A stretch of 63,431 nt of DNA, taken from Lachnospiraceae bacterium (lineage in GTDB: Bacteria; Bacillota; Clostridia; Lachnospirales; Lachnospiraceae). Location of the stretch: contig JAFUXG010000008.1 of the NCBI GenBank assembly GCA_017470935.1, positions 1 to 63,431 on the forward strand, read 5' to 3'. Below, one piece after another: positions 90 to 40,720 of this stretch (within the stretch, counting starts at the first letter, position 1; each line of letters starts with the position of its first letter). The notes under the pieces were generated by a model. The model was not told the origin of the DNA, made no database searches, and saw only the letters and a program-made list of their open reading frames with translations. A program made the position numbers and the translations under genes.

Positions 90-330
90 AGCGTAAATGC
101 CAGTCGAATATGCCCGGATATGTATGGCATATTGGAAAGGGATTAGAACTTCTTAATGTCCCGTAAGTATTCAAGCGATGCGAGCCATGGATGGCGAGCA
201 AGGCGAGAAGCGGCATGGAGGCCGCTTGGAAGCCGGTCGCGTATTGTTATATGACCTTGGCGGGACATTTAGAAGTTCAAGCCCGTCCAAACAGCCATAC
301 ATATCTGGGCATATCGATGGCACTTACGCG
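90..330. repeat. Large imperfect palindromic element
   Basis: The two arms (about 90-163 and 261-330) are near-complete inverted repeats over roughly 70 bp. Examples are 146-163 against 261-278 (one mismatch in 18) and 108-128 against 294-314 (one mismatch in 21). The loop is locally GC-rich and contains further hairpins, including GCGGC-type stems near 218-235. No convincing gene lies inside; a 67-codon open frame across it looks incidental. It sits just downstream of the minus-strand desulfurase gene, so it could act as a 3' end structure, a MITE-like palindrome or a structured RNA. I do not recognise the family. Positions 1-89 are AT-rich with nothing identifiable. Confidence 0.7.
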
Positions 331-364: not shown

Positions 365-2464
365 CTACGCAAATGTCTTAAGCACCTTAACAAGCGCATC
401 AATATCATCAGGCGAATTGTATAGCGCAAGTGTAGGACGAACCGAGCCCTCATATCCGAAATGACGCAGTACCGGCTGTGCACAGTGGTGTCCTGTACGA
501 ACCGCTATGCCATAGCTGTTAAGCCTTTCTCCAACCTCTTCATCAGAATATCCGTCCAACTTAAATGACAGCACAGATGCCTTGTTAGCAGCCGTTCCGA
601 TAAGATGAAGACCTTTGACCTTCTTCATCTCACAGATCGCATACTGCAAAAGCTCATGCTCCCATTTATTAACAGAAGACATCCCGATTGCTTCAAGATA
701 TTCCAAGGCTGCACCAAGGCCTACCGCATCTGCAATACTTCCTGTCCCTGCCTCGAACTTGTTCGGAGCCGGATTGTAAATGGTCCTCTCAAAGGTAACA
801 TCAGCAATCATGTTGCCGCCACCGTGATATGGTTTTGCAGCCTCCAAAAGCTCTTTCTTTCCGTATACTGCACCGATTCCTGTTGGTGCAAATATCTTAT
901 GGCCTGAGAATACAAAGAAATCTGCATCCAGTGCTGAGACATTAACCGGAATATGGGCAACTGACTGGGCACCGTCTATAAGTATTCTCACACCGTGTCT
1001 ATGGGCAATTGCCACAAGCTCCTCAACAGGAGTCACGGTACCAAGTACATTTGAAACATGGGTAACTGAAACAAACTTGGTTCTCTTTGTAAACAGCCTC
1101 TCATATTCATGAAGTTCAAGCTGTCCATCCTTGTCACACGGAATAACCTTGATGACCGCTCCTGTCTCTGCGGCTATAAGCTGCCACGGAACTATGTTGG
1201 CATGATGCTCCAATATGGAAACTATTATCTCATCACCGGGCTTAAGCGTAGGCTTCACATAGGCATTTGCCACCAGGTTAATAGCCTCTGTTGTACCTCT
1301 CACAAATACTATCTCATTGGCAGAGGGTGCTCCGATAAATCTTCTTACTGTCTCTCTTGCATTCTCATAGGCATCCGTTGACCTTGCAGCAAGGGTATGG
1401 GCTCCTCTGTGAACATTGGAATTCTCATGCTCGTAATAATACGTGAGTCTGTCAATAACTGCTCTTGGTCTCTGGGTAGTAGCACCGTTATCAAGCCATA
1501 CAAGCTGATTGCCGTTAATCTGTTCAGATAGGATCGGAAAATCATCCCTGATCTGTGCAAGAGTCTTGCTCCCAACAATTATTGAATCATTTCTTGTTGT
1601 TCCTGCAGGCTTTGATGAAGCACCATTCCATGTCTTATCCCCGCCAAGGGAGGTTGGCGCATTAATAGCCCTTTCATTTTTCTTTGCCTGTTCCTGTGAT
1701 ACTACAGAAGGCGAATAGGACTGCGCCTTCGGTTCTATTATCGTCTCCGGCTTTGCCGCATCCAAAAGATAATCCTTTAACGGATCGTTAACCGCATCTA
1801 CTGTCTTAAGCCATTCATCTGTGGATGCACCGCCGTAAGAGAAAGGATGCTCCCAGTCAAATTCTTCACCGTTGCCAAAAGAATTTTCCGCATGATTCAA
1901 ATACTCACCATAGAAGCCACCTTCTTCATTAAAAAGATGTCCATATGCAGTAACAGCTTTGTTTTCAGCAATTGATATAACCTTTGGATCACCCTTTTCT
2001 ATAAGATTATCGATACCCTCAGCACAAACCTCAGGCTCATAGTTGATACCCAAATTTCCTAATTCCCCCGTAAGATCCGGAAACAAAGAATTGGCAAGAG
2101 CACTAAGCTCTGCTGCTGTGGGTACTCCCGCAAGCTGCTCTAATGAGCCAGTCTCCGGTATCCCATTATATTGGGTTGCTGCTTCCAAACCCTCTGTGGT
2201 ACCCGGAATTACTGTAATGGATGATGCATCGGTGGGAATATCAGCTAATCCTGCACCCGGAGCTGCCCCCTGGGGTAAGCCTGAAAACTCTCGTGTAACA
2301 CTTGTTCCTTTCGATACTCCCTGTATCTGAGATGCATACGACAGTGCATCAAATGTTCCCGGAACCTGTACGCCGTAACTAGAGCCCTGTGCATTTTCCG
2401 TAATACCTGCTACTGATGTAGCAGTCTCAGGCAATGAGTAAACCTGTGGATTAATCGTATTCAT
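365..2464 (-). CDS. Cysteine desulfurase with encapsulin cargo-loading extension
   Basis: A 699-residue fusion-like protein. The C-terminal ~400 residues are a complete SufS-type, PLP-dependent class V cysteine desulfurase, which releases sulfur from cysteine as an enzyme persulfide. Visible marks are the PLP lysine in FSGHKIF, the LEHHANIVPW segment and the catalytic cysteine in RTGHHCAQP. The first ~290 residues are low-complexity, rich in Gly, Pro, Ala, Ser and Thr, with spaced short hydrophobic motifs such as GLPQG, VPGT, GIPET and AGVPTAAELS. This matches the disordered targeting domain known for desulfurase cargo of family 2A encapsulins. The gene overlaps the shell gene by 14 bp, implying translational coupling. 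ATG at 2464 is chosen over an upstream GTG because AGGTGAG precedes it. Packaging is inferred from family knowledge and linkage. Confidence 0.9.
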   Translation of the reverse strand: MNTINPQVYSLPETATSVAGITENAQGSSYGVQVPGTFDALSYASQIQGVSKGTSVTREFSGLPQGAAPGAGLADIPTDASSITVIPGTTEGLEAATQYNGIPETGSLEQLAGVPTAAELSALANSLFPDLTGELGNLGINYEPEVCAEGIDNLIEKGDPKVISIAENKAVTAYGHLFNEEGGFYGEYLNHAENSFGNGEEFDWEHPFSYGGASTDEWLKTVDAVNDPLKDYLLDAAKPETIIEPKAQSYSPSVVSQEQAKKNERAINAPTSLGGDKTWNGASSKPAGTTRNDSIIVGSKTLAQIRDDFPILSEQINGNQLVWLDNGATTQRPRAVIDRLTYYYEHENSNVHRGAHTLAARSTDAYENARETVRRFIGAPSANEIVFVRGTTEAINLVANAYVKPTLKPGDEIIVSILEHHANIVPWQLIAAETGAVIKVIPCDKDGQLELHEYERLFTKRTKFVSVTHVSNVLGTVTPVEELVAIAHRHGVRILIDGAQSVAHIPVNVSALDADFFVFSGHKIFAPTGIGAVYGKKELLEAAKPYHGGGNMIADVTFERTIYNPAPNKFEAGTGSIADAVGLGAALEYLEAIGMSSVNKWEHELLQYAICEMKKVKGLHLIGTAANKASVLSFKLDGYSDEEVGERLNSYGIAVRTGHHCAQPVLRHFGYEGSVRPTLALYNSPDDIDALVKVLKTFA

Positions 2465-3404
2465 AATACTCACCTACCTCTACATCCTCTAATACTGCAA
2501 TCGCATCATCTGCCAATATAGCTGCTGAGCAGTACAAAGATAAGAGATAAGACGCAACACCCTTGTCATCTATTCCACGGAAACGTACTGATAAACCTCT
2601 TGAATGCTCATTCTTAAGTCCTGCCTGGAAAAGACCGATTACTCCTCTCTTTGCCTCTCCTGTACGGATAAGAAGAATGTTTGTCTTACCGCTTTGTGAC
2701 TTAGGATTCTTAAGTCCGTCTACCAAAAGCTTGTCCGTTGGGATAATAGGAATTCCTCTCCATGTTAAGAATGTACCGCCTGCAATATTAGCAGTTACAG
2801 GTGGAACACCTCTTCTTGTACATTCTCTCTCAAATGCAGCAATAGCTCTTGGATGAGCTAAGAAGAATGAAGGCTCCTTCCAAACCTTTGTGATGAGCTC
2901 ATCAAGATCATCCGGTGTAGGTGCACCATTTCTTGGCTGGATTCTCTGTGAATCAGGTACATTCTTGAGAAGGCCGTAATCATCATTATTGATAAGCTGG
3001 CTCTCCTGCCTCTCCCTAAGTGATTCAATGGCAAGACCCAGCTGTTCCTGCACCTGGTCATAAGGTGAGCTGTACACATCCTCAATAGCTGTGTTTACAT
3101 TGATGATGGTTGAGATGGAATTCAGCCGATACTCTCTAGGCTCTGTCTCATACTCTACATATCCGTCAGGAATAATATCTGACTTCTTTGTCTGGCTGCA
3201 GAGCACATCAAGAGGTGTCTCGCCCTCAACTACCTTGTTCACACGGAATATTCCGGTTTCCAAGCCTTTGAACTCCAATACTCTTGTTAACCACTTTGGT
3301 GTCAGTGCACCATACTGCGGCTTTGTCTTGGTAACGTTGGCAAGATTATACGCCGCCTTCGCCCCCAATGCGTTGATCTGATCGTTTTCTGTTTCCTTTG
3401 ACAT
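2451..3404 (-). CDS. srpI: Family 2A encapsulin shell protein (SrpI-like)
   Basis: A 317-residue HK97-fold shell protein of the SrpI group. Recognisable features are the N-terminal arm with TKPQYGALTPKWL, the SSPYDQVQEQLGLAIESLRERQE helix, the LAHPRAIAAFERECTRRGVPP region and the RGIPIIPTDKLLV loop, all family 2A signatures. Members self-assemble into about 25-nm icosahedral compartments that load a cysteine desulfurase through its N-terminal extension. Start ATG at 3404 is placed by GGAGG eight bases upstream; a longer frame to 3470 lacks such a site. The cargo gene follows with overlap. The upstream genes are sulfur-transfer genes, so the compartment belongs physically to this operon. What the shell stores or shields here cannot be read from sequence; sulfur storage or protection of the desulfurase are the known possibilities. 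Confidence 0.9.
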   Translation of the reverse strand: MSKETENDQINALGAKAAYNLANVTKTKPQYGALTPKWLTRVLEFKGLETGIFRVNKVVEGETPLDVLCSQTKKSDIIPDGYVEYETEPREYRLNSISTIINVNTAIEDVYSSPYDQVQEQLGLAIESLRERQESQLINNDDYGLLKNVPDSQRIQPRNGAPTPDDLDELITKVWKEPSFFLAHPRAIAAFERECTRRGVPPVTANIAGGTFLTWRGIPIIPTDKLLVDGLKNPKSQSGKTNILLIRTGEAKRGVIGLFQAGLKNEHSRGLSVRFRGIDDKGVASYLLSLYCSAAILADDAIAVLEDVEVGEYYEYD

Positions 3405-3531
3405 GTTATATTCCTCCAATCTTGATTTTTTCGGGCATTTTTCTGCCCTCTGCTTACCGCTGTCATTCAACTCAATCTTTTTTAAGCGGAAGCATTATAC
3501 ATAAAAGTAGCATCTACCCTTGTATATTTAA

Positions 3532-4989
3532 TTACAGCCATGCACCCTCATGGGAGAAAATGATATCCTTTGCCGCATCAATTCCGCCCTTTAGATTATA
3601 CATGGGACCTTTGTACCCCGCTTCTCTAAGCGTTCTGATTGCAAGTATGCTTCTCTTGCCCTCCTTGCAGATAAATATGGTATCAATATCCGGATCCAGC
3701 TCCTTCTGCCTTCTAGCCAGCTGTCCTATCGGTATAACCACCACATCCGGGAATCTATGGATTGCTCTCTCATGCGGTTCCCTTATATCCACAATGGTCA
3801 TCTTATCTCCACGCTCTATTCGCTCCGCCAGTTCATCCGGTTCTATTCCTTCAATCGGAAGCTCTTCCTCTTCATCCTTAAGACCGCAGAAATCATCATA
3901 GTCATAGTCCTGCACTTCAAAGATAGACGGGTTCTTACCGCATATGGGACATTTATCACTCTTATCAACCCTAAGAATTCTTGAATGAAGATACAGACTG
4001 TCCACCGTAAGAAGCTTTCCGTCTAAATGTTCCCCTATCCCGATAATAAGCTTTAATGCCTCATTAGCCTGGATACTTCCTATAATTCCGGGAAGAGGAC
4101 TGATAGCCCCTCCCTCTGCACAGGTAGGCACAAGTCCCGTGGGCGGCGGTGCTGGGAACTGGCACCTGAAGCACGGTCCCTGATTCAGATTGAAAATACC
4201 AACCTGTCCCTCATATTGATAGATGGCACCAAACACCAGCGGTATACCTGAAAATGCACAGGCATCATTTATCACATATCTCGCCTTATAATTATCGGTA
4301 CAGTCTACCACAACATCATAGCCATCTATTATCTCATTTATATTATCAGCTTCCACTTTAACATTCTCTGTCACAATAGTTATCTTAGGATTAATTCCCT
4401 TAATCGTATCCTTTGCTGATGCCACCTTAGGTCTGTTCACATCCCGCTTTCCATGAATCACCTGGCTCTGCAGATTAGAAAGAGATACCTCATCAAAATC
4501 CACCACCTTGATTTCTCCCACGCCCGCCGCCGCAAGATACTGTATTACAGGTGAACCCAGCGCTCCGGCACCGATGATGACCACCTTGGCAGCTTTAATC
4601 CGCTTCTGCCCCTTCACACCAATCTCACGAAGCATCAGATGCTTATTGAAACGGTCAATCTCAGCATCATCAAAGGATACTGCTTTTCTTCTCTCATCTG
4701 AGATCAGGCTCTCCACTGGAGCACCTCCTGCAATTGCAGGCAGCAATAATATCTCCACATTATTGTCTAATACATTATCCCACTTATCTTCAGATGTAAC
4801 ATTCTCATCACCCGCATATATCTGTACAAATTCCCTAAGCCTTCCCTCCTCATTATATAGAGCTTCCTTCGCATCCGGATATTCATCAGTCAGTCCGCCC
4901 AGAAGAGCACGTATTGAGTCTCCTTCTATTTCAATTATTTCATGTCTTCCAAAAAATCCGCGTAACGTCGCAGAAATATATATCTTCAT
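3532..4989 (-). CDS. MoaD/ThiS-like - E1 (ThiF/MoeB) - rhodanese triple fusion
   Basis: A 485-residue protein with three sulfur-transfer modules. Residues 1-89 are a ubiquitin-like MoaD/ThiS domain ending in an internal GG (PAIAGG). Residues ~105-360 are an E1-like adenylating domain with nucleotide loop GAGALGSP, zinc-type CFRC and CPIC pairs and the catalytic-cysteine region VPTCAEGG. Residues ~375-485 are a rhodanese domain with active loop CKEGKRS. E1 enzymes adenylate a carrier C-terminus and rhodanese supplies persulfide sulfur, so all parts for making a thiocarboxylate are in one chain. The internal GG would have to be exposed by proteolysis, and two JAMM protease genes lie next door. 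ATG at 4989 is preferred over an upstream GTG that overlaps the GGAGG site. Confidence 0.88.
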   Translation of the reverse strand: MKIYISATLRGFFGRHEIIEIEGDSIRALLGGLTDEYPDAKEALYNEEGRLREFVQIYAGDENVTSEDKWDNVLDNNVEILLLPAIAGGAPVESLISDERRKAVSFDDAEIDRFNKHLMLREIGVKGQKRIKAAKVVIIGAGALGSPVIQYLAAAGVGEIKVVDFDEVSLSNLQSQVIHGKRDVNRPKVASAKDTIKGINPKITIVTENVKVEADNINEIIDGYDVVVDCTDNYKARYVINDACAFSGIPLVFGAIYQYEGQVGIFNLNQGPCFRCQFPAPPPTGLVPTCAEGGAISPLPGIIGSIQANEALKLIIGIGEHLDGKLLTVDSLYLHSRILRVDKSDKCPICGKNPSIFEVQDYDYDDFCGLKDEEEELPIEGIEPDELAERIERGDKMTIVDIREPHERAIHRFPDVVVIPIGQLARRQKELDPDIDTIFICKEGKRSILAIRTLREAGYKGPMYNLKGGIDAAKDIIFSHEGAWL

Positions 4990-5180
4990 CTCTTCCCTTA
5001 CCTCCACTTTCTCTGTTATGTAGTCAGTATTTATTCATAAGCATCTCTGATGCTTATGTTTTTACTTGCAAAATGTCAGAACATGCCGGCATGACCGCCT
5101 CATTCACGTTGCCTGCGTCTCCGTGTATTTTTCGCAATATAGCGATTTGTGCAAGCCAGGTCGACGCAATACTCATTTTC

Positions 5181-5573
5181 TCACAACCCAGAATAGATAT
5201 ATATGTCCTGATCACATTCTTTTGAATATACTCTCACGTCAGCACAGTGTCCCTGCTCCACTGAAACAATCATATACAGTAAGCCGGGAATCATATATCT
5301 TTCATCCTCACCGGATGGAATTGCCGGATGATCTACGTGGGAATGATAGAAACCTATTATTTCAAGACCTCTCTCTAATGCCATTCTTTCCACCTTATAT
5401 ATTTTAAGAGGATCCATTGCAAAATGAATATTCCTTATATCGTATCCATCTGTATTATCAGCCGGAACAATCTCACAAATCTCAGATGTATCTTTATTGC
5501 CCAGAAGAACTCCACAGCATTCATTGGGATATTCCAACTCAGCATGCTCATACATTAACGTTTGCCACATCAT
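5181..5573 (-). CDS. JAMM/MPN-family (M67) metalloprotease
   Basis: A 130-residue protein of the Mec/JAB1 family. The zinc site is intact: Glu in YPNECCGVLLG, His-x-His in GFYHSHVDHPAIPSGED, and the following Ser and Asp. Bacterial members (Mec+, QbsD, HcyD) either trim extra residues from the C-terminus of sulfur-carrier proteins or cleave the amino-acid adduct from the carrier. Here the carriers at 7.5 kb and in the 3.5-5.0 kb fusion both have residues beyond their GG. The first ~10 residues of the usual family start are short; an in-frame open stretch continues upstream without a clear ATG, so the true start may be a non-ATG codon. It lies between yezD and the triple fusion in the operon. 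Confidence 0.85.
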   Translation of the reverse strand: MMWQTLMYEHAELEYPNECCGVLLGNKDTSEICEIVPADNTDGYDIRNIHFAMDPLKIYKVERMALERGLEIIGFYHSHVDHPAIPSGEDERYMIPGLLYMIVSVEQGHCADVRVYSKECDQDIYIYSGL

Positions 5574-5633
5574 TAAATTCCACCACTTCCGCTCTGCGAT
5601 TACATAGATAAATGCTTTCGGTTTTCCGATCAG

Positions 5634-5771
5634 CTATTTCAATCGTATTTTCTCTGTTTTATCAATCTGTATTACCTTTCCATCCTGTATGACGATTGTG
5701 ATCGTGCCGTACTTCACTTCCTTAACAAGCCGATCAACATGCTCCAGATAATCCTTACCCTGATCCGCCAT
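5634..5771 (-). CDS. yezD: YezD family small protein (DUF2292)
   Basis: A 45-residue gene. The product runs from MADQGKDYLEHVDRLVKEV through YGTITIVIQDGKVIQIDKTEK, the compact beta-rich pattern of the YezD/DUF2292 family. These proteins are repeatedly found with sulfur-assimilation genes, but their molecular role is not established. A GAGGAG site lies about 12 bases upstream of the ATG. The gene sits between the two JAMM protease genes. Recognition rests on the GTITIVIQDGKVIQI core, which fits well. Confidence 0.75.
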   Translation of the reverse strand: MADQGKDYLEHVDRLVKEVKYGTITIVIQDGKVIQIDKTEKIRLK

Positions 5772-5928
5772 TATTAGACACCACTCCTCTTATTCCTACT
5801 TAATCAGTATGATTACTAGGTATTAGAAAGATAATATCATCTATATTACTCAATGTCAACATGTCAGACTGATTATTTTTGAAAACGTTATCATACATTT
5901 TTCTCATTTTTAGCACATTGAAATTAAT

Positions 5929-5978
5929 AAAAAACAACTCCCGGCACAAAGCATATTTCATACCTTGTACCGGGAGTT
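5929..5978 (-). terminator. Rho-independent terminator inside the sulfur operon
   Basis: On the minus strand a 9-bp stem (CCGGGAGTT pairing with AACTCCCGG, extended imperfectly inward) is followed by GTTTTTT. It lies after the JAMM gene at 6158 and before yezD. It may separate the operon into upstream (metY to JAMM) and downstream (yezD to encapsulin) transcription units or cause partial read-through. Confidence 0.7.
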
Positions 5979-6053
5979 ATTACTTTACCTGTTCAATATA
6001 TAAATTATTTAATGCACTTTTATTGCTCCGTAAAACTACCAATGTATTATACA

Positions 6054-6165
6054 GTACCTTTGCTCATTGTTATACATGTCGCCTGCCGGCTCCATGAGGA
6101 CATTCGCAAAAGTACTAATCCTCTGTGCAAGCACAGGATTAGTACCTTTGCTCATTGTTATACAT
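6054..6165. repeat. Short tandem duplication with hairpin at end of JAMM gene
   Basis: The 24-bp string beginning GTACCTTTGCTCATTG and ending ATACAT occurs at 6054-6077 and again at 6141-6165, where it overlaps the 3' end of the JAMM gene. Between them is a hairpin with arms GTACTAATCC and GGATTAGTAC plus an inner TGTGC/GCACA stem. It looks like a small duplication of the gene terminus around an inserted palindrome. Confidence 0.65.
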
Positions 6166-6583
6166 ACTCAATTTCATGCACAAATACATTCTTCTCTTTA
6201 TCCACCTCAAAGGCTTTAAGCACAGGATTATCCGGTTCCTGTAAAGACAGGATCAGATACTCAAATGTCGGATCAAAGGCAAGTCGTTTATCCTCCTCTG
6301 AAGGTCTTGAAGGACTTTCCGGATGGGAATGGAAATTACCAATAAGCCCCACACCAGCTGCCCTTGCATCCTTGAGTGCCGCAAACTGTTCCTTGGGATC
6401 CATGGAAAAATGCTCATTGCTCTCATCTATATTGCGAAGAAGATAAACCTTGGTCACTGTCTTCACATTGCCCTCAACCGTACCTGCAAGAAGTCCGCAG
6501 GCTTCGTTGGGAAGTCCCTTGCGGCAATGCTCTAAGATCGTCTCGTAATCCTCCTTCTTCATGATCAATCTAATCTCACTCAT
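6158..6583 (-). CDS. Second JAMM/MPN-family (M67) metalloprotease
   Basis: A 141-residue JAMM protein. The conserved Glu is in LPNEACGLLAG, the metal-binding His-x-His is in GNFHSHPESPSRPSEEDKRLA, and the Ser/Asp pair follows. It is divergent from the neighbour at 5181, so this is not a recent duplication. It lies directly downstream of the E1/ThiS pair, as in the hcy-type methionine cluster of Wolinella where the JAMM enzyme HcyD trims the carrier. The likely role is C-terminal processing of the 7.5-kb sulfur carrier or release of the formed amino acid. Which of the two proteases serves which carrier is unknown. Confidence 0.88.
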   Translation of the reverse strand: MSEIRLIMKKEDYETILEHCRKGLPNEACGLLAGTVEGNVKTVTKVYLLRNIDESNEHFSMDPKEQFAALKDARAAGVGLIGNFHSHPESPSRPSEEDKRLAFDPTFEYLILSLQEPDNPVLKAFEVDKEKNVFVHEIEYV

Positions 6584-6685
6584 TCTATATCCTCACTTTC
6601 GGCGATTTTTTATAATCCCTTTGGCAGATTATCAAAACCGCCATACTGTTTACACTACGATGGTCAATTTTAACTTCAGTTAATT

Positions 6686-7498
6686 TCACTCTCCCGGCTT
6701 CCACTCACAAGCCGCCTGCTCATAGTCAATAAGCTTTGTAATAGTCGGATTTTTGCCACAGACTGCACAATTACAGTCTCTAGGAAGCTTGATAGAATGG
6801 AAATCCATCTTAAGTGCATCATATGTGAGCAGCTTACCTGTAAGGAGCTCGCCCTGCCCTATAATATACTTAACTGCCTCCATAGCCTGAAGACTTCCGA
6901 TAACACCGCCCATTGCACCAATCACACCTGCCTGCTTACAGGTAGGAACCGCATCTGCCGGTGGCGGATTTTTAAATACACAGCGATAACATGGTCCCTC
7001 TCCGGGCACATAAGTCATAAGCTGTCCCTTGAAACGGATAATACCTGCATGTGAAAATGGCTTGCCAGCCATTACACAGGCATCGTTTATAAGAAACTTT
7101 GCCGGAAAATTATCTGTTCCGTCAAGAATGAAATCATAATCCTTAATAAGATCCATTATGTTTGAAGAATCCACAAAAGTACGATAAGTATTGACTGTTA
7201 CATCAGGATTGATAGCCTGCATAGTCTCTGCCGCAGACTTTACCTTTTCTTTTCCGATATCCTGGGTAGTATGTATTACCTGTCTTTGCAGATTGGAAAG
7301 ATCCACTACGTCCGCATCAACAATACCTATGGTTCCCACTCCCGCTGCCGCAAGATAAAGTGCTGCCGGCGCCCCAAGACCTCCGGCACCTATGATAAGC
7401 ACCTTGGCATTTAATAATTTCTTCTGTCCCTTAACACCTACCTCTTTAAGTATGATGTGACGTGAATATCTCTCCAGCTGCTCATTTGAAAAAGCCAT
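6686..7498 (-). CDS. E1-like sulfur-carrier adenylyltransferase (HesA/MoeB/ThiF family)
   Basis: A 270-residue stand-alone E1-like enzyme. It has the ATP loop GAGGLGAPAALYLAAAGVG, the DxVDLSNLQRQ motif, the zinc pairs CYRC and CAVC, and the candidate thioester cysteine in VPTCKQAGVIG. It should adenylate the C-terminal glycine of the sulfur carrier encoded immediately upstream. The ATG overlaps the carrier TAA by one base (TAATG), so translation is coupled and pairing is strongly implied. There is no rhodanese domain, so sulfur must come from another donor, for example TusA, the rhodanese of the fusion protein, or the desulfurase. Confidence 0.9.
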   Translation of the reverse strand: MAFSNEQLERYSRHIILKEVGVKGQKKLLNAKVLIIGAGGLGAPAALYLAAAGVGTIGIVDADVVDLSNLQRQVIHTTQDIGKEKVKSAAETMQAINPDVTVNTYRTFVDSSNIMDLIKDYDFILDGTDNFPAKFLINDACVMAGKPFSHAGIIRFKGQLMTYVPGEGPCYRCVFKNPPPADAVPTCKQAGVIGAMGGVIGSLQAMEAVKYIIGQGELLTGKLLTYDALKMDFHSIKLPRDCNCAVCGKNPTITKLIDYEQAACEWKPGE

Positions 7499-7707
7499 TA
7501 ATTTGCGCCTCCTCCCATGAAATACAGAAATTCCACAGCATCTCCCTCTTTAATCCTGGTATCTGCGAAGGTCTCCTTGTCGATAAACTCATCATTGATG
7601 GTAACTGTCACATAATCCGGATTATCAATCTGCTCCTTCTCTATTAATTCCTTAAGTGTAATTCCCTCTTCGTATTCCTTCTTCTCACCTGCAATTGTAA
7701 ATGTCAT
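7498..7707 (-). CDS. ThiS-like sulfur carrier protein with C-terminal extension
   Basis: A 69-residue ubiquitin-fold carrier. The C-terminus reads YFMGGGAN rather than ending in GG. In known carriers such as HcyS and QbsE, residues beyond GG are removed by a JAMM protease before adenylation and thiocarboxylate formation; the two JAMM genes in this operon fit that scheme. Location next to MetY and sulfite reductase points to homocysteine rather than thiamine synthesis: no other thiamine gene is present in the window. Which glycine becomes terminal (after GG or GGG) is not determinable. Confidence 0.85.
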   Translation of the reverse strand: MTFTIAGEKKEYEEGITLKELIEKEQIDNPDYVTVTINDEFIDKETFADTRIKEGDAVEFLYFMGGGAN

Positions 7708-7796
7708 TTTCTATTACCTGCCCTTTCAATTCTTATTCTTTGTTACTGTTTACCTATGTATACATATATTTTATCTTTTGTATTTTGCTGTTAGTA

Positions 7797-8048
7797 TCAA
7801 TCTCCAACCTTTTTGACGATCAGAGTATATGTACCGTCATCATTGGTATAAAGCTTTAGCACCTGATGTCCCTCTTCCTTAATACTTCTTGGAACATTCT
7901 GGACAGGCTCACCATCATTCAATCTTATGGATAATATGTCGCCATCATCCAGCTCCTCTAAAGCCACCTTAGCCTTCACAAATGTTACCGGACATACCAC
8001 ATCCGTAATATCCACCGAATCTGTAATATCAAATTCCGTCTCTGCCAT
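7797..8048 (-). CDS. TusA/SirA-like sulfurtransferase
   Basis: An 83-residue TusA-fold protein with the signature VVCPVTFVKAK. The cysteine of CPxxxxK is the persulfide carrier in this family. It likely relays sulfur between a desulfurase or sulfite reductase product and the carrier/E1 system encoded downstream. Start ATG at 8048 follows GGAGG by eight bases; a second ATG two codons earlier is too close to the site. The role in this operon is inferred from position. Confidence 0.85.
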   Translation of the reverse strand: MAETEFDITDSVDITDVVCPVTFVKAKVALEELDDGDILSIRLNDGEPVQNVPRSIKEEGHQVLKLYTNDDGTYTLIVKKVGD

Positions 8049-8120
8049 TTTCATATCCTCCTGATTCTTATTATTTGTAATTCAACTAATGTTTTTTTAC
8101 CTCTCATTTGGTCCGGCGTT

Positions 8121-8984
8121 TTACCCATCATAGGCTGCCTGAAGCACCTCTTTAAGCTTCTCTGCACCAACCCGGTCTATGGTGAACTTAAAACGTTCAC
8201 CTGCATTTGCGTTATCATCAAAGAACTGTATCGCTGCGTCTGTTACTCTGAAAAGCTGTTCTTCATCGGTAATAAGCGGCAACAGCTCTGTGCCTTTACT
8301 AATTGAATTGCCAAATGTTCCACCAAAGGATAACCAGTATGCCGGCTGCGCATCCCATGCATCTGTGGGACATGATTTCACGCATCTTCCACAATAATTA
8401 CATTTATCAAAATCCACATTAACCTTGCCATCATCTATGGTTATTGCATTGGATCTGCACACCTTTGCACACAGACCGCAATTGATACACGCCTCTTCCT
8501 TCCACTTCATCTCTAACGCGCCCTTAATACCTACATCATTTTCCTCTGCCTTTAGACAGTTATTCTGACATCCGGTCACACCAAACTTGAACTTGTGTGG
8601 AAGCTCTCTTCCGAAATAGCGTTCATTTAATTTTAATGCGATATCATATGTATCGATATTACCGCTTGGGCATATCTCACTTCCCTGGCAGGCTGTCACT
8701 GTCCGTACACGGGGTCCGCAGACGCCGGGCTTACAGCCGCCTTCTGCAAGGGAATCCTTAACATCATCAATATCCTTAAGCTTAATAAATGGTATCTCCA
8801 CTCCCTGCCTTGAAGTCAGGTGAACGTGGCCATCGCCATACTTCTCAGCCACCTCGGCAATCTTCTTAAGATTTTCAGCCGTTAATGTACCTCCCACAAC
8901 GGCCAGACGAAGTGAAAAATTGTCTTTTTGTTTTTGTCTCATGAACCCACCCTTTTTAAGGGTTCCATAATCTACCTCTGCCAT
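8121..8984 (-). CDS. Siroheme-type sulfite reductase with ferredoxin domain
   Basis: A 287-residue monomeric nitrite/sulfite-reductase-family protein. The siroheme-[4Fe-4S] ligands appear as TACQGSEICPSG and TGCQNNCLKAEEND (C-x5-C and C-x3-C). An inserted bacterial ferredoxin domain follows with two clusters, CINCGLCAKVCRS and CNYCGRCVKSCPTD. The layout resembles small AsrC-like anaerobic sulfite reductases. It should reduce sulfite to sulfide with electrons from ferredoxin, feeding the MetY/carrier pathway. Start ATG at 8984 has AAGGAG seven bases upstream. Nitrite as alternative substrate cannot be excluded, but all neighbours are sulfur genes. Confidence 0.85.
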   Translation of the reverse strand: MAEVDYGTLKKGGFMRQKQKDNFSLRLAVVGGTLTAENLKKIAEVAEKYGDGHVHLTSRQGVEIPFIKLKDIDDVKDSLAEGGCKPGVCGPRVRTVTACQGSEICPSGNIDTYDIALKLNERYFGRELPHKFKFGVTGCQNNCLKAEENDVGIKGALEMKWKEEACINCGLCAKVCRSNAITIDDGKVNVDFDKCNYCGRCVKSCPTDAWDAQPAYWLSFGGTFGNSISKGTELLPLITDEEQLFRVTDAAIQFFDDNANAGERFKFTIDRVGAEKLKEVLQAAYDG

Positions 8985-9022
8985 GTAATCTCTCCTTATT
9001 ATTTTGTGCACTACTCATACAG

Positions 9023-10279
9023 CTACGCAGTTTTTGTTATATCCTCTGTTTTTATTGCCTGAAGAAAATCCTTTTTCAGATCTTCTACATCCTCAATTCC
9101 AACGCTTATCCGGATCATATCCTCATATACTCCAGACTGCAGCTGCTCCTCCTTTGACAAATGAGCCGCAATTGTGGATGCAGGGTGAAGTACCAAGGTT
9201 TTTGTATCTCCTATATTTGACAAAATAAATGGTATCTTAAGCTTATTCATTATGGAGAAGGCTCTCTCCTTGCTTCCTACCCTTACGGTTACTATTGCAC
9301 CATACCGGTTGCCAAACTGTTCACTTGCTAATCTGTGGTCAGGATGATCGAAAAATCCCGGATAATTAACGATAAAATCAGAATCCAATCCTCTTAGGTA
9401 CTGAGCCAGCTCCCATGCATTTTCACATTGCCTTTCCATACGAAGCCCTAAGGTCTCCAGCCCCAAAATGTTAAGAAATGCATTCTGTGGTGACAGGCAG
9501 CCTCCGGTACTCCTGAACAATCCGTTTCTAAGCTTTGCTATATAGGCAAAGGGTCCAAATTTCCTATAGGGAAGCAATCCGGGATAACGCTCATCCCATT
9601 TAAACTTGCCTCCATACACCAGCACACCGCTTATAGCATCACTGTTTCCATTTATGTATTTTGATGAAGAATGTACCACCACATCAGCCCCTAAGGATAA
9701 GGGTTTTACAAGCATAGGCGTTGTAGTGGTGTTGTCAATGATAAGTGGCAGGTTATGTGCATGAGCCATATCTGCTATACTCTTAATATCTGTAACATCA
9801 AGCTTTGGATTGCCTATGGTCTCCGCAAATATCACTCTGGTCTTATCAGTAATCAGCTTTTCGTATGCCGCAGGTACATTCTCGCTTACAAACCTTGTTG
9901 TAATTCCAAATGCCTTAAGATCATCGAACAGTTCAACCGTTCCGCCGTAGAGTCCGGCAGATGCCACCACCTCATCACCACTCTGAAGTATATTCATCAA
10001 TGCATTAAAGAGTGCCGACATTCCTGAAGCACACGCCACACTGCCTATTCCGCCTTCTAATAAGGTAATACGTTTTTCAAAATCTTCAATGGTGGGATTA
10101 TTGATCCTTGTATATGAAAATCCCATTGCTTTATTATTAAATATCCCTTCTAATTCTTCTGCATTCTCATGTCTGAATGCACTGCTTTGATAAATCGGAA
10201 CATGGGTTGCACCATTTGGATAATAAGTATCCACACCATGGAGCAGCACAGTGTTAAAGCTAAACTCTGTACCTTGCAT
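9023..10279 (-). CDS. metY: O-acetylhomoserine sulfhydrylase
   Basis: A 418-residue PLP enzyme of the Cys/Met metabolism family. It joins O-acetylhomoserine with sulfide, or with carrier-protein thiocarboxylate in some bacteria, to give homocysteine. Visible motifs are YTRINNPT, the ASAGLYGGT segment and the PLP lysine in VVHSSSKYINGNSDAISG. Length and the KFGPFAYIAKLRNGLFRSTGGCLSP block fit MetY rather than cystathionine enzymes. It is the first gene of the operon, behind a strong promoter and an AAGGAG site. In the Wolinella hcy system MetY works with the HcyS thiocarboxylate; the downstream carrier, E1 and JAMM genes imply the same here. Confidence 0.9.
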   Translation of the reverse strand: MQGTEFSFNTVLLHGVDTYYPNGATHVPIYQSSAFRHENAEELEGIFNNKAMGFSYTRINNPTIEDFEKRITLLEGGIGSVACASGMSALFNALMNILQSGDEVVASAGLYGGTVELFDDLKAFGITTRFVSENVPAAYEKLITDKTRVIFAETIGNPKLDVTDIKSIADMAHAHNLPLIIDNTTTTPMLVKPLSLGADVVVHSSSKYINGNSDAISGVLVYGGKFKWDERYPGLLPYRKFGPFAYIAKLRNGLFRSTGGCLSPQNAFLNILGLETLGLRMERQCENAWELAQYLRGLDSDFIVNYPGFFDHPDHRLASEQFGNRYGAIVTVRVGSKERAFSIMNKLKIPFILSNIGDTKTLVLHPASTIAAHLSKEEQLQSGVYEDMIRISVGIEDVEDLKKDFLQAIKTEDITKTA

Positions 10280-10353: not shown

Positions 10354-10382
10354 ATATTATTCTTTATTTCCTACTTTGTCAA
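10354..10382 (-). promoter_or_regulatory. Sigma-A promoter of the sulfur operon
   Basis: TTGACA (10377-10382) and TAATAT (10354-10359) are separated by exactly 17 bases on the minus strand, about 75 bases before metY. CCTATT occurs twice directly upstream and overlapping the -35 region, and an imperfect TAGGAAATA follows; these may be a regulator site, possibly of an Rrf2-type cysteine regulator, but that is a guess. No S-box or T-box structure is seen in the 170-bp gap. Confidence 0.8.
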
Positions 10383-10453
10383 TAGGATTTAATAGGTTAT
10401 ATTATAGTTTTTTTATAACACCTGCAATAGCCTTTACCTATAAGATATTTCTT

Positions 10454-11259: not shown

Positions 11260-12684
11260 TTATGATACCTTTATCTCTCGTGATCCACTATCTCTTTTGC
11301 GTATTTTCATACACTCATCATCTGTCTTATCTTTATATAACTCAATCCCCTTTTCATCAGCTCTTTCCTTACACAGCTTAAGTCCCTTTTCCACAAAGCC
11401 ATCGGCAAACTGCTTGCGAATCTTCCACGCATAGCGGTTATCAGCATCTTCAAATTTGGCTGTCTGATAATCTAACACATCCTCTATAAGTGAAAGTTCA
11501 TTGCTTACATCAGTACCTGATGTCTTATATACCTTCCGATAGAAGCTCTTCATATCCTTAAGCACCTCTACTGCTGCATCCGCCACCCATAATGTCCTAT
11601 GGTCCGGGGTTACAACATTTACGGTCTTAAGATCATAATGTGCTGCATTCTTAGTATTCTGTATTGCGAACACCTGCTCTCCTGCATCCACGTTGATTTC
11701 CGGCGTTGCTGCCAGATATGAAAGAAGAAGCTTGATAAAATAAACATCCTTCTCTTCTATCCCCCAAGGTGTCAAAGGGTTCAGATCTATCATTCTAAGC
11801 TCAATATGGCTTACTCCTTTGTTCTTAAGGTCTTCCAGATTATATACCCCTGCCGGTTTCAATCGCACAGGATAGTACAGCTCGGCTGACGAATGAATAA
11901 GTCCCTGCTCTACATACTTAAGTATGCTGTCCACATAATGTTCTATATCAGAATAGTCCAATATTGGAGTGAACATATTCCAATAACCAAGCTCAGAGCA
12001 TCTGGTGCTTCCCATACCGTTAAATATATCCTTGCCTGTCACACCCTTTTCCACATAAGAGCTGTCAAGCAGGGGGCTTGCTGCAGTTGCAGCCACAATA
12101 AGCCAGTTATATACCTGCACCTTTGCTGCAAGGGACATATAGAAGCTGTCCTTATACCTGCGATACTCTTCCTTAAGCTTTGTCGCATCATAGCCAGACG
12201 CAGCCTTATACTTTGTGATAAAATCCTCATATAACAGGTCATCGGAGAAGGAATAGTTGAAATGAATTCCCGAAAATGTCATCTTATACCTGCCATATCT
12301 GTCAGACAAATAATAGCGGTAATTCTTCTTATGAATCTCTTCGTCCTTATATTCAGCTATAGGAATCTCATTCTCTTTGCGTATATATGGCGGATTAGAA
12401 AATGGCCACAGATACTCAGGCTCCTCTAATCCTGCAAGGGTCTTCTGTATTCTCAAGGTATGGAACTTAAGCTGCTCCATAGCCTCACATACATTTTCGG
12501 CAACAGCAGTATTGATCTCTGTCTGATTCTCACAGAAATCTCTTACAATGAAGGGATCATTCGGGAAGGGATGGGGTGTAAGAGCAAAATATCCATCCTT
12601 ATCAATTCTAAGGCTCTCCTTTTCAAGACCTATATTGCCTTCCAAAAGTAAATCTCTAACCTTACTGTTCTTAATATCTAACAT
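11260..12684 (-). CDS. gshA: Glutamate-cysteine ligase, GshA type
   Basis: A 474-residue enzyme joining glutamate and cysteine through the gamma-carboxyl. Diagnostic parts are the N-terminal GNIGLEKESLRID (metal/ATP glutamates), the FSGIHFNYSFSD block, GSTRCSELGYW and the YYPVRLKP segment. This matches the ligase half of the bifunctional GshAB of Firmicutes, but the ATP-grasp glutathione synthetase half is missing and no synthetase gene is in the window. The product may therefore stop at gamma-glutamylcysteine. Start ATG at 12684 has GAGGA seven bases upstream. It is the last gene of an operon with a second, unrelated ligase. Confidence 0.88.
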   Translation of the reverse strand: MLDIKNSKVRDLLLEGNIGLEKESLRIDKDGYFALTPHPFPNDPFIVRDFCENQTEINTAVAENVCEAMEQLKFHTLRIQKTLAGLEEPEYLWPFSNPPYIRKENEIPIAEYKDEEIHKKNYRYYLSDRYGRYKMTFSGIHFNYSFSDDLLYEDFITKYKAASGYDATKLKEEYRRYKDSFYMSLAAKVQVYNWLIVAATAASPLLDSSYVEKGVTGKDIFNGMGSTRCSELGYWNMFTPILDYSDIEHYVDSILKYVEQGLIHSSAELYYPVRLKPAGVYNLEDLKNKGVSHIELRMIDLNPLTPWGIEEKDVYFIKLLLSYLAATPEINVDAGEQVFAIQNTKNAAHYDLKTVNVVTPDHRTLWVADAAVEVLKDMKSFYRKVYKTSGTDVSNELSLIEDVLDYQTAKFEDADNRYAWKIRKQFADGFVEKGLKLCKERADEKGIELYKDKTDDECMKIRKRDSGSREIKVS

Positions 12685-12750
12685 ATTGAAGTCCTCACAA
12701 ATCTTATTAAAAGCAATTTTGAGCTTAGTCAAATTACATCAATGTCATCC

Positions 12751-14166
12751 CTAACAAGCCTTATTCTTTTTGTATTCGTTTTCTCTTTTCACTGAAGCAT
12801 ATTCCATAATATAATCTTCCATGGTCTTGCCATCTTCAATCCCCTGAAGCATTCTAAGCGCAGGTGATTCAAGTCTTGCTGCCCTATCAAATAAAGGCTC
12901 AAGATATATCTCCTCACCAAATCCCCGCTTCTTAAGTCCTGCCTTTGCAAGCTCTAATATCTTACGGCAAAGATGCTTAAGTCTGGTCTGGTCAACAAAG
13001 TCCGGAAGCTTAACTCCATTCATAAGCTTTCTCAATTCTCCGGCAGTATAGCCATGATGATAGATAACTGTATCCTTTTCCATCAGCTCTATGACCTTAT
13101 CTACCTCACTTGATAATCCAATATGAAATGCAGCCACAGACATGGCATCTGAAAAAGGCTGGCAGCAGCCGCTTCTGTATTCTATAGTTCCTCTAAATGT
13201 AAGATCCTCAAATTTATATGTCCTTAATAATCTAAGATCATCATCCTCCGGTGTAAATGTATAAGAGTGATACTCTCCATTCTCAAAGTACTCGGCCTCA
13301 ATACTCTCACGCTCAAAATATTCTATGATAGGAATAGGCTTAAAATGCAGATAATGACCTTCTCTTTCTGCACAGAATATGCTTGTTCTGCTAATGTATT
13401 CCAAAAGCTCATCAACATTTTCCGGAATATGTTCAAACATTCCGATATTATGAGGATTAATGCCATGGGTACTATTCTCCCAGAACATATCTCTCACACA
13501 GAGATTGTCAGGCTCCTCCTCCATCCATGCATTTGCAAACAAGAGACTCTTAATAGGCTCAAGCATAGAAAATGCCCTGATGGTCTCAATGAGCTTATCC
13601 TTCTTAACATCAAGCTGCACCTGGGAAGCACAGGCGTATGTTGCAAAGTCAGGATATGGATGAAAATACATAGGGAACCTCCAATCCTGTGCTCTCTTAA
13701 GATAGCCCTCCAGCATCTGATATCTGGGAACAGGAAGAAATTCCTTTCGATTAACCTTGTGTCCCGGATTGATACCCATACCTGTAAGAATATGTCCATT
13801 GGACATGAGCTTATCATTTAACTCCGTAATATAATCTGAAAACCTTTCCCATATTGCCTTTAAGGATCTTTCCTTTCCAAAGGAGAACTCCATATTATTA
13901 TAGGAACAGTCAAAGGAAAGATTATCCCCGGTCACCGGGTCTGTATAGGAATAGCAGCTGCCCTCACTGTCTATACCCACAGGCTCAAAGCCCCGTACCC
14001 TGCAGAAGCCTTCAGTCACAGCCTTGGTAACGGCAAAATCAGTAGCTTTCCCACTAAGATTAACCACCGGCATCTCAATCTCTATACCGATGTAATCCTT
14101 CTTATTCTTTTCCGTAGGTGCAATGTATCTCTCATACAAAGACGCCTTGATCTGCTCTCTATCCAT
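12751..14166 (-). CDS. Glutamate-cysteine ligase family 2 (GCS2) protein
   Basis: A 471-residue GCS2/EgtA-like ligase. Features include YIGIEIEMPVV near the N-terminus, FDCSYNNMEFSFGKE, MGINPGHKV and TIEYRSGCCQPFSDAM. This family makes gamma-glutamyl bonds, usually to cysteine. It is not homologous at sequence level to the GshA-type gene directly downstream, so two different gamma-glutamyl ligases sit in one operon. They may use different amine acceptors. Start ATG at 14166 has GGAGG eight bases upstream. Substrate specificity cannot be read from sequence. Confidence 0.82.
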   Translation of the reverse strand: MDREQIKASLYERYIAPTEKNKKDYIGIEIEMPVVNLSGKATDFAVTKAVTEGFCRVRGFEPVGIDSEGSCYSYTDPVTGDNLSFDCSYNNMEFSFGKERSLKAIWERFSDYITELNDKLMSNGHILTGMGINPGHKVNRKEFLPVPRYQMLEGYLKRAQDWRFPMYFHPYPDFATYACASQVQLDVKKDKLIETIRAFSMLEPIKSLLFANAWMEEEPDNLCVRDMFWENSTHGINPHNIGMFEHIPENVDELLEYISRTSIFCAEREGHYLHFKPIPIIEYFERESIEAEYFENGEYHSYTFTPEDDDLRLLRTYKFEDLTFRGTIEYRSGCCQPFSDAMSVAAFHIGLSSEVDKVIELMEKDTVIYHHGYTAGELRKLMNGVKLPDFVDQTRLKHLCRKILELAKAGLKKRGFGEEIYLEPLFDRAARLESPALRMLQGIEDGKTMEDYIMEYASVKRENEYKKNKAC

Positions 14167-14260
14167 TCCAGCTTCCTCCAATCTTCTGCCTAGGGCTATT
14201 TTTATAATTCTTTTCTTTGTCTGAATGCTTTGTTCTTATAATCTGTATGAAATCTTCAGA

Positions 14261-15085: not shown

Positions 15086-15237
15086 AGGCTCCCCCTCCTT
15101 GTTATATCTATCAGCTGCCAAGCCTTTGCGGGATGATTGAATATCAATTACAAGGGAATATAGCTTATACCCTCAGATTAGTAATTATCAGATTACGAAT
15201 TCCATATATTTCCTATTATTATAATATGTTTGTGGGT

Positions 15238-15423: not shown

Positions 15424-16338
15424 TTATTCAAATGGTACAACTGCTCCATCATATGTACTGTTGATATAATTTTTGATATCATCAGACTTAAGAACCTCTA
15501 CCAAAGCCTTGATTGCATCGCTATTTTCATTTCCTTCCTTAACAGCGATTACATTAACATATGTCTTAGCTGCCTCTGAATCATTCTGCTCATAAGCAAG
15601 TGCATCCTTGCCAACAGAGAAGCCTGCCTCTAACGCATAGTTACCATTTAATACTACATAAGCATTCTCAGATACAACTCTTGCAACCTGTGCTGCCTCT
15701 AGCTCAACAATATTGATATTATGAGGATTCTCCTCGATATCAGTAACAGTTGCTGTAAGACCTGCACCATCCTTTAACTTGATGATTCCGTTATCCTGTA
15801 ACAAAAGAAGTGCTCTTGCCTCGTTGGTTGTGTCATTAGGTACTGCAATTGAATCACCGTCAGCTATGTCATCAAGAGATGTCTTAGTTCCCGGGTAGAT
15901 TCCGAATGGCTCATAGTGGATTCCGCCTGCATTTACAAGGTGTGTACCCTTCTCCTCATTAAAGCTCTCAAGGTATGGAATGTGCTGGAAGTAGTTAGCG
16001 TCATACTCTCCTGCTTCTACAACCTCATTAGGCTGAACATAATCTTCAAACTCTGTGATCTCAAGGTCATATCCCTTGTCTGCAAGTAATGCCTTTGCCT
16101 GATTAAGAATCTCTGCATGTGGTGTAGGTGAAGCTGCGATCTTGATGGTCACTGCCTCACCACTACTTGCTGTGTCATCTGAAGCTGCATCTACATCCTC
16201 CGCTTCCTCTGTATCCTCTACCGCTTCTGTTTCTGCTTCAGTATCTGCAGGTGCTGTTGTATCAGCTCCTCCACATCCTGTGATCACTCCTGCTACCAAA
16301 ACTCCTGCTGTCAATAATGATAAAAATTTCTTCTTCAT
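15424..16338 (-). CDS. metQ: Methionine ABC transporter substrate-binding lipoprotein
   Basis: A 304-residue NlpA/MetQ-type lipoprotein that captures methionine outside the membrane. The signal peptide MKKKFLSLLTAGVLVAG ends at a lipobox before Cys (VITGC). An acidic Thr/Glu/Asp linker follows, then the NlpA domain beginning IKIAASPTPHAEIL. YFQHIPYL and PNDTTNEARAL are ligand-lobe landmarks. Start ATG at 16338 follows a GAGGAAAAAG site; the longer frame to 16389 would bury the signal peptide. It is the last gene of metNIQ. Confidence 0.92.
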   Translation of the reverse strand: MKKKFLSLLTAGVLVAGVITGCGGADTTAPADTEAETEAVEDTEEAEDVDAASDDTASSGEAVTIKIAASPTPHAEILNQAKALLADKGYDLEITEFEDYVQPNEVVEAGEYDANYFQHIPYLESFNEEKGTHLVNAGGIHYEPFGIYPGTKTSLDDIADGDSIAVPNDTTNEARALLLLQDNGIIKLKDGAGLTATVTDIEENPHNINIVELEAAQVARVVSENAYVVLNGNYALEAGFSVGKDALAYEQNDSEAAKTYVNVIAVKEGNENSDAIKALVEVLKSDDIKNYINSTYDGAVVPFE

Positions 16339-16444
16339 AACTTTTTCCTCACTTTCTTCCTTATACTTATAAATATCCCCTTTATACATTTAACCCATAA
16401 TGATGGAACTGCTTACCCTATATATAGGCTTACATGACTTACCA

Positions 16445-17104: not shown

Positions 17105-17198
17105 GACCTGTCACCTCCCTGTAAGAAGCTTTTTTGCTGCAACATCGGTGTACCACCGATCTTAATATTGTTCTATTATCAAACATTAACGTATTCTC

Positions 17199-18233: not shown

Positions 18234-18251
18234 ATTAGTTTCTCCATCCTC

Positions 18252-18295
18252 AAAAAATAGCACGTCTTCAGGAACCCTTCTCCCTTTGACGTGCT
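18252..18295 (-). terminator. Terminator hairpin before metN
   Basis: Minus-strand stem AGCACGTC/GACGTGCT with a 21-base loop is followed by ATTTTTT. It ends the ECF S-component transcript or acts as a leader attenuator of metNIQ. I looked for an S-box SAM riboswitch here and did not find one. Confidence 0.75.
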
Positions 18296-40714: not shown

Positions 40715-40720
40715 TTCAAA

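Follow-up and report, generated by a model that had tools for sequence, protein, structure and literature searches.

The encapsulin compartment of family 2A, a protein shell with a cysteine desulfurase (CyD) as its cargo, was described in 2021 (PMC8049743, PMC8346489). The survey among these papers names serine acetyltransferase (SAT) and rhodanese as enriched neighbours, so that a sequence-only reading of the DNA considered here, which held that known desulfurase encapsulins lie beside few genes, was fair in part; the survey also proposes that a co-regulated rhodanese touching the shell exterior might be a privileged sulfur acceptor (PMC8346489). Shell and cargo knock-outs of Synechococcus elongatus are reported to have no growth defect (PMC8049743). 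The DNA in question, called the window at its full length of 63,431 nucleotides, is contig JAFUXG010000008.1 (C73 in our numbering) of a Lachnospiraceae bacterium (assembly GCA_017470935.1; genome G000, 3.06 Mb in 75 contigs, 77.75% complete). On its minus strand, from 10279 to 365, it carries MetY, a sulfite-reductase-like gene, TusA, a ThiS-like carrier, an E1 adenylyltransferase (E1), a JAMM metalloprotease (JAMM1), a gap, a second JAMM gene (JAMM2), a fusion of carrier, E1 and rhodanese in one chain, the SrpI-like shell and CyD. The main finding is the linkage of this fusion to the shell, which is solid among the relatives analysed. The interpretation that we favour, at even odds, is a conserved sulfur-relay locus of two probably co-regulated units, in which encapsulated CyD would feed a carrier route to cysteine or homocysteine.

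Among carrier routes, HcyS, HcyF and HcyD of Wolinella succinogenes are said to form a thiocarboxylate pathway to homocysteine, and CysO-MoeZ-Mec+-CysM of Mycobacterium is a worked example of the gene neighbourhoods known as class 4c. Both class 4c, which joins a carrier, an E1-rhodanese, a JAB protein and cysteine synthase, and class 4e were described by Iyer et al. in 2006 (PMC1779556). Judged by gene families, the window run would be of class 4e, the HcyS type, with which it shares a ThiS/MoaD-like carrier, a JAMM protein, an E1 without rhodanese, SirA/TusA, sulfite reductase and an O-acetylhomoserine sulfhydrylase (here MetY); the passages of that paper on class 4e name no compartment and no second carrier set. 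Class 4c has in common with our loci JAMM, carrier and E1-rhodanese and, in the related loci L021 and L151, cysteine synthase beside JAMM2. It differs in that the window-type carrier is fused before E1, that shell and CyD belong to the run, and that the sulfhydrylase nearby is more commonly of MetY type than a cysteine synthase; none of the ten proteins of 365-10279 is a cysteine synthase. Uba4 and MoeZ also hold E1 and rhodanese in one chain, whereas the window fusion has its own N-terminal carrier with an internal Gly-Gly. Published fusions of a ubiquitin-like domain N-terminal to a ThiF-type E1 lie beside the same pyridoxal-phosphate (PLP) enzymes, and the descriptions that we could consult mention neither encapsulin nor rhodanese.

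The closest described compartment is SrpI/CyD of S. elongatus PCC 7942. Its shell is 52.8% identical to that of the window, its CyD has a long disordered N-terminus with a LAN motif (PMC8049743, section 7), and its neighbours are serine acetyltransferase, cysteine synthase, rhodanese and an Rrf2 regulator. That rhodanese stands alone, with no carrier, E1 or JAMM within 8 kb, whereas the rhodanese of the window is the tail of the carrier-E1 fusion. Both halves, the compartment and the carrier neighbourhoods, were known before, and no description of their union was found in the searched literature, whose scope excluded supplementary tables and subscription papers; no paper there joins encapsulin with thiocarboxylate, and the one joining encapsulin with rumen is unrelated. 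In the main text of PMC8346489, ThiF, JAB, MoaD, ubiquitin, homocysteine and methionine are absent at word starts. A Pfam list in the supplementary tables on gene neighbourhoods of PMC8049743 may already include ThiF or JAB.

Linkage of the fusion to the shell

An alignment of ten shells, run against 84,980 species genomes, returned 165 relatives, of which the best 80 were analysed and the other 85 set aside. These 80 come from Lachnospiraceae, other Bacillota, three Treponema (Spirochaetota) and two Fibrobacter succinogenes (Fibrobacterota) genomes. The gene immediately upstream of the shell encodes the fusion in 76 of the 76 loci with at least 1.4 kb of upstream sequence, four loci with less being left out of this count. 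With rhodanese fused to E1 and carrier beside the shell in every close relative judged, acceptor, chemistry and products take a concrete, testable form, and the set of loci, which crosses phyla, is usable for co-evolution and co-purification work. A JAMM gene is found upstream in 67 of 70 loci with 3 kb, and CyD follows the shell within 300 bp in 75 of 76, the exception (L102) having it after a longer gap. SAT occurs downstream in 55 of 64 loci and is the gene right after CyD in 60 of 77; the gene before JAMM2 is a second MetY (MetY2) in 43 of 67 and cysteine synthase in some, as in L021 and L151. The closest relative (L048, shell 97% identical) has the order MetY-TusA-ThiS-E1-JAMM1-JAMM2-fusion-shell-CyD-SAT.

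The family sample of 397 genomes, with at most four fusion candidates scored in each, gives the same picture. The shell exceeds its cut-off in 10 genomes of 10 genera (G000, G074, G135, G147, G153, G233, G332, G357, G365 and G380), and exactly these 10 carry the fusion (E-values up to 1e-100), which adjoins the shell in all of them. None of the 397 has shell alone or fusion alone (Fisher 4e-20, uncorrected for relatedness), and G015 gives only a faint shell match of 19 bits with internal stops. The sequence-only reading had tied the compartment to carrier-protein machinery, and this tie is conserved; confinement of the linkage to one genome, which it had named as grounds for doubt, is excluded. 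In a quick tree of 77 fusions (midpoint root), the Treponema and the Fibrobacter sequences each come out as a single group nested among the Bacillota, a topology which, for this one gene treed, fits transfer between phyla. Genome G135 also holds a second shell-CyD pair (L022 8284-12621, contig C26), with a diverged fusion (53%) and no JAMM found adjacent.

The first module, from MetY to JAMM1, behaves differently. Its E1 occurs in 58 of the 397 genomes (E-values up to 1e-90), all 10 shell genomes included (Fisher 2e-9); 46 of these 58 have it at 74% identity or more, and the remainder may be other E1s. Within the 80 loci, ThiS with first-module E1 is found in 27 of 37 that have 7 kb on both sides, and a MetY-type gene likewise in 27 of 37. 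With the E1 present in 58 genomes and the fusion in exactly the 10 of the shell, the first module looks like a background for the compartment, whose constant partner seems to be the fusion.

More distant shells widen the comparison. Genome G1103 (L167, shell 85%) has the order ThiS-E1-JAMM1-Sir-TusA-MetY-SAT-fusion-shell-CyD-SAT, in which the search gave no second JAMM; its two SAT genes (7216-8169 and 12553-13485; 52% and 54% identical to that of L020) flank the fusion-shell-CyD block. The loci L166 (shell 71%), L168-L171 (44-49%) and L032-L035 (50-64%) have shell and CyD with no fusion or JAMM in the fetched surroundings. L166 shows a rhodanese-like domain 5 kb upstream of the shell, and L036 only a distant E1-like protein 5 kb off; the shell frames of L035 and L036 are long (485 and 475 residues), and these two may be family 2B. 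Among plasmids, 32 records match the shell, family 2B included, and seven were opened. In Aliarcobacter cibarius pACIB (L151, shell 72%), cysteine synthase, M67/JAMM, carrier, E1, rhodanese, shell, CyD, CysE and CysK follow one another, with the carrier as a separate gene ending AGG-I and IS110 and IS5 insertion elements inside the run; an IS5-family element separates the E1 part from the rhodanese part upstream of the shell (L151 9266-11985). In Azospirillum, S. elongatus, Variovorax, Methylosinus, A. baumannii and B. stagnalis, tblastn detected neither carrier nor E1 nor JAMM at distances of up to 8 kb. Serine acetyltransferase is present in five of these six carrier-less records, and a lone rhodanese is annotated near shell and CyD in S. 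elongatus and Variovorax. The carrier route looks as if it had been built on a more widespread shell-CyD-SAT(-rhodanese) arrangement. The relay is favoured, among other things, by the same carrier being a separate gene in a like gene order in A. cibarius, and by these lone rhodaneses.

The same comparison bears on a rival account, which we consider rather unlikely: an ordinary sulfur-storing family 2A encapsulin and an independent thiocarboxylate pathway would be gene neighbours under a common cysteine-limitation regulon, with the compartment releasing sulfide or low-molecular persulfide cell-wide and the fusion taking sulfur from any source. Shell-CyD pairs without nearby fusion or JAMM in other lineages are what it expects. 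One paper gives the cargo class a part in sulfur storage (PMC12407261), serine acetyltransferase turns up generally beside such pairs (PMC8346489 and the plasmid loci), and the window genome has other PF00266 proteins (e.g., C67:226279-227391, 477 bits), so that persulfide may have other sources. A shared regulon alone does not predict, however, that the fusion tracks the shell (10 of 10 genomes against 0 of 387), and the HcyF-type E1 of the first module, equally sulfur-related, tracks it less closely (58 genomes against 10).

Proteins of the window

The features of the run are as follows.

365..2464, minus strand: CyD cargo, SufS-type cysteine desulfurase, with motif ELSALANSLFPDL in its N-terminal region
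2451..3404, minus strand: family 2A encapsulin shell protein, SrpI-like
3532..4989, minus strand: carrier, E1 adenylyltransferase and rhodanese fusion
5181..5573, minus strand: JAMM2, JAB/JAMM metalloprotease of the second carrier set
5634..5771, minus strand: DUF2292 (PF10055) small protein, 45 residues, first gene of unit 2
5795..5811, no strand: operator-like dyad CATACTGATTAAGTAGG, 11 of 12 positions, before unit 2
5831..5859, minus strand: promoter-like TTGACA-17-TATTAT (11 of 12), with a TG ahead of the second hexamer
5934..5980, minus strand: intrinsic-terminator-like stem between the units, 20 pairs counted, T run
6158..6583, minus strand: JAMM1, by position presumably HcyD-like
6686..7498, minus strand: E1 without rhodanese, which by position we take to be HcyF-like
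7498..7707, minus strand: ThiS-like carrier, presumably HcyS-like, tail GGG-AN (masked glycines)
7797..8054, minus strand: TusA/SirA-like sulfurtransferase
8121..9011, minus strand: sulfite-reductase-like siroheme/4Fe-4S protein
9023..10279, minus strand: MetY-like O-acetylhomoserine/O-acetylserine sulfhydrylase (TIGR01326, 424 bits, under the cut-off of 495)
10370..10386, no strand: operator-like dyad CCTATTGACAAAGTAGG, 12 of 12, over the -35 hexamer of the MetY promoter-like site 10382-10354

Much of the sequence-only reading stands here. The 14-bp overlap of shell and desulfurase lies at 2451-2464 if CyD starts at the ATG at 2464, and Pfam finds all of TusA, ThiS, E1, JAMM, rhodanese, sulfite reductase and MetY within 3532-10279. 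The components of its one carrier pathway are present, but as two carrier/JAMM/E1 sets, and the E1 and rhodanese domains that it gave to separate genes share one chain (3532-4989) with an N-terminal carrier of their own. It had passed over the DUF2292 gene at 5634-5771, which lies in the 584-bp gap between JAMM1 and JAMM2 and heads the second carrier set.

By model score the shell is assigned to family 2A: it reaches 487.6 bits with NCBIfam encap_f2a (cut-off 380) and 378.9 with the family 2B model (below the cut-off of 400), and its sole Pfam domain is SrpI-like (317 bits), the cyclic-nucleotide (cNMP)-binding domain of 2B being absent. CyD scores 543.6 bits against the SufS family model (cut-off 475) and 785.8 against NF041166, the model of family 2A cargo, narrowly under its cut-off of 800. 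The poorly conserved N-terminal region of CyD, presumed to be a targeting domain, has 301 residues in the window (median 164, range 77-301 in 77 cargos) and holds AAELSALANSLFPDL, to be compared with the LARLANEFFS motif of the described CyD (PMC8049743, section 7). The LAN pattern occurs in 42 of the 77 cargo N-termini, 0.06 being expected from shuffles. An adjacent desulfurase with such a putative targeting domain agrees with family 2A, and CyD is predicted to be encapsulated in the shell of the window.

Mean pairwise identity is 0.925 for shells (inflated by the choice of loci, which relied on shell peptides and retained the best 80 of 165), 0.87 for the CyD enzyme domain and 0.45 for the CyD N-terminus. 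At fourfold sites of the shell, the window agrees with its nearest relative L048 at 0.60 and with L053, L054, L060, L073, L079 and L108 at 0.20-0.48, although shell residues agree at 0.90-0.97 in loci whose fourfold sites diverge. The shell identity therefore reflects constraint more than recency, and recent transfer is unlikely to lie behind the 92% identity.

The fusion, which matches Pfam ThiF and Rhodanese, comprises a ubiquitin-like carrier (residues ~1-90), an E1 (~105-352) and a rhodanese (~383-485), with AGG at 87-89 and the rhodanese active-site cysteine at 441. From its E1 fold and C-terminal rhodanese with cysteine it is assigned to the E1-rhodanese sulfurtransferases of Uba4/MoeZ type. 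The carrier Gly-Gly is retained in 77 of 77 fusions, with a linker of variable length behind it, and Cys441 and one E1 cysteine are invariant in 75 aligned fusions. The rhodanese is the best-kept domain (mean pairwise identity 0.78, against 0.71 for E1 and 0.50 for the carrier), which is suggestive only, there being no control set of other E1-rhodanese proteins, and would fit a domain that faces the shell or CyD. In the AlphaFold2 model (mean local confidence, pLDDT, 80.9; overall score, pTM, 0.67), residues 87-92 around the Gly-Gly fall below pLDDT 50 between well-predicted domains. JAMM proteins can free a carrier from a fused enzyme by cutting behind Gly, as described for DRJAMM on MoaD-MoaE (PMC8832034), and JAMM2 may cleave the fusion in this way; the E, HxH, S and D positions are conserved at a 95% threshold in JAMM2 (71 proteins) and JAMM1 (47). 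In the ThiS-like carriers, 54 of 57 end in GGG plus one or two residues. Given these tails and the internal Gly-Gly of the fusion, both carriers would need trimming or cutting.

The fold of the fusion also invites another interpretation, namely that the fused carrier is an Urm1/SAMP-like protein modifier or a donor for tRNA thiolation fed by CyD, with JAMM2 as deconjugase and amino acid synthesis merely neighbouring. Foldseek places Uba4 (6yub) first, followed by MoeB-MoaD and ThiF-ThiS, and the carrier region (residues 6-90) resembles SAMP1 in NCBIfam at 40.9 bits, below the cut-off of 60; Uba4-Urm1 is described as serving both tRNA thiolation and ubiquitin-like conjugation (PMC7527816). Against this, the genes labelled nearby encode MetY, cysteine synthase and serine acetyltransferase, in a survey that did not search for tRNA thiolase or E2-like genes, and we hold the modifier interpretation to be improbable.

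Regulation and a possible sulfur relay

Two sites lie between JAMM1 and the DUF2292 gene, the terminator-like stem at 5980-5934 and, at 5859-5831, the promoter-like site with the highest score in the stretch; the two modules of the window are probably separate transcripts. Promoter-like sites are overall not above shuffles (19 found, 27.1 expected), and terminator-like sites number 12, three of them the same stem, against 6.0 (standard deviation 2.6). A single operon over the whole run of the window is rejected, given the terminator-like and promoter-like sites at about 5.9 kb. Relatives with the order MetY2-JAMM2-fusion-shell-CyD-SAT-ThiS-E1-JAMM1-TusA have short gaps (medians -14 to 67.5 bp), so that one operon is likely there.

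A dyad, CCTAyT-N5-ArTAGG, precedes both units of the window. Of 73 upstream regions, 37 match it at 11 or 12 of its 12 positions, where shuffles would give 0.5; these are regions of 71 related loci and the two of the window, from some of which the pattern was drawn, and the species are related rather than independent. Because the same operator-like dyad stands before both, units 1 and 2 are probably co-regulated. Of the separate, unco-regulated units that the sequence-only reading would have counted against the link, the separateness is probable in terms of transcripts, and the common dyad speaks against a lack of co-regulation. As operator of a genome-wide regulon the dyad is not supported, with 22 sites at one mismatch or fewer against 57 per strand for the reversed control. 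One such one-mismatch site (15212-15228) lies near a metQ-metI-metN-like cluster (15424-18302; MetQ by NCBIfam, metI and metN labelled by eye), and a similar set precedes JAMM2 in L024. The Rfam scan of the window gave no family besides TwoAYGGAY, and hence no riboswitch, and that of 8 related loci (L021-L024 lying outside it) gave only group II intron, tRNA and TwoAYGGAY.

A regulator is suggested by a gene at least 50% identical to the Rrf2 protein of L016, present in 10 of 37 well-covered loci; the L016 protein passes the Rrf2 superfamily model, with a CymR match below cut-off. PMC2869319, the single paper searched for a published CymR motif, yielded none for comparison with the dyad. If these proteins are CymR-like, expression would follow sulfur limitation, which sits badly with a further possibility to which we give little credence: an overflow valve, in which shell CyD removes excess cysteine or sulfide in the rumen, the carrier recovers part, and storage or detoxification is the selected function. 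Rumen does figure in 18 of the 24 titles, among 80 records, that name an organ, and serine acetyltransferase with CyD would form a trap from sulfide to sulfane sulfur.

In the relay that we favour, unit 1 (MetY, sulfite reductase, TusA, ThiS-like carrier, E1 and JAMM1) would be an HcyS-type thiocarboxylate route to homocysteine, to which unit 2 (DUF2292, JAMM2, fusion, shell and CyD, with SAT in relatives) would add the encapsulated desulfurase. Cysteine may be made by serine acetyltransferase with cysteine synthase or MetY. Inside the shell CyD would turn cysteine into alanine and sulfane sulfur, and the fusion would act as a dedicated exit enzyme, its rhodanese cysteine taking the sulfane sulfur that leaves the compartment. 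JAMM2 would cut the carrier free, or trim it, and the E1 domain would then adenylate its Gly-Gly end. The carrier thiocarboxylate would be spent by the neighbouring PLP sulfhydrylase, of MetY type or in some species cysteine synthase, on O-acetylhomoserine or O-acetylserine, and a JAMM would release the amino acid. The homocysteine named by the sequence-only reading is too specific a product: cysteine is equally likely, because SAT mostly follows CyD and cysteine synthase sometimes precedes JAMM2. A stricter form, in which the carrier-E1-rhodanese is the only partner to draw on compartment sulfur and JAMM frees carriers from a carrier-E1 polyprotein, we put forward tentatively, as somewhat short of an even chance. 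If true, such a dedicated export would turn a sulfur store into an addressed supply line and provide a cystathionine-free path from cysteine sulfur to homocysteine; it would also be, to our knowledge, the first case of an encapsulin passing its product on to a ubiquitin-like carrier.

The sequences display the gene identities and order, the co-occurrence of shell and fusion, the conserved catalytic residues and Gly-Gly, and the common dyad; each relay step is predicted from the protein families named, as are the passage of sulfur from compartment to rhodanese and the products. Several observations weigh against the relay. Family 2A-type shells of 44-71% identity occur without adjoining fusion or JAMM, so the compartment can exist without the fusion, and the first-module E1 is mostly without shell (48 of 58 genomes), ThiS and this E1 not being found within the flanks of 10 of the 37 well-covered loci. 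Of the 77 cargo N-termini, 35 gave no match to the LAN pattern. Among the proteins measured, JAMM2 shows the lowest conservation (mean identity 0.36); 3 of 70 loci lack it upstream, and it did not turn up in L022 and L167. Up to the end of the contig, unit 2 of the window contains neither cysteine synthase nor a second MetY, and the dyad is not enriched genome-wide. Transfer from shell to rhodanese is itself something that we infer, and as the fusion presumably lies outside the shell, sulfur would have to exit through the pores.

Contig end and neighbouring genes

The window contig ends 364 bp past CyD, inside a dispersed repeat, with the next gene out of sight. Right after CyD, Rfam finds a TwoAYGGAY RNA (132-291, plus strand, 81 bits), of which 12 copies were found in the window genome, 10 of the 12 within about 500 bp of a contig end and 10 of the 12 with the common end sequence ACTGTTTAG. 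This 'cis-regulatory RNA' behaves as a dispersed repeat element in this genome. The SAT ortholog of the window genome (G000:C44:69878-70834, listed as L038; 70% identical to that of L020) lies 250 bp from a contig end, behind another copy of TwoAYGGAY, in the orientation that would be expected if CyD and this candidate SAT were neighbours split by the repeat.

Besides MetY, a second strong PF01053 protein is encoded at C63:71350. Elsewhere in the window, a serine-recombinase-like and a relaxase-like open reading frame (36245-43468, by eye) suggest an integrated mobile element, and two neighbouring proteins at 11260-14181, beside the sulfur genes, are glutamate-cysteine-ligase-like by eye.

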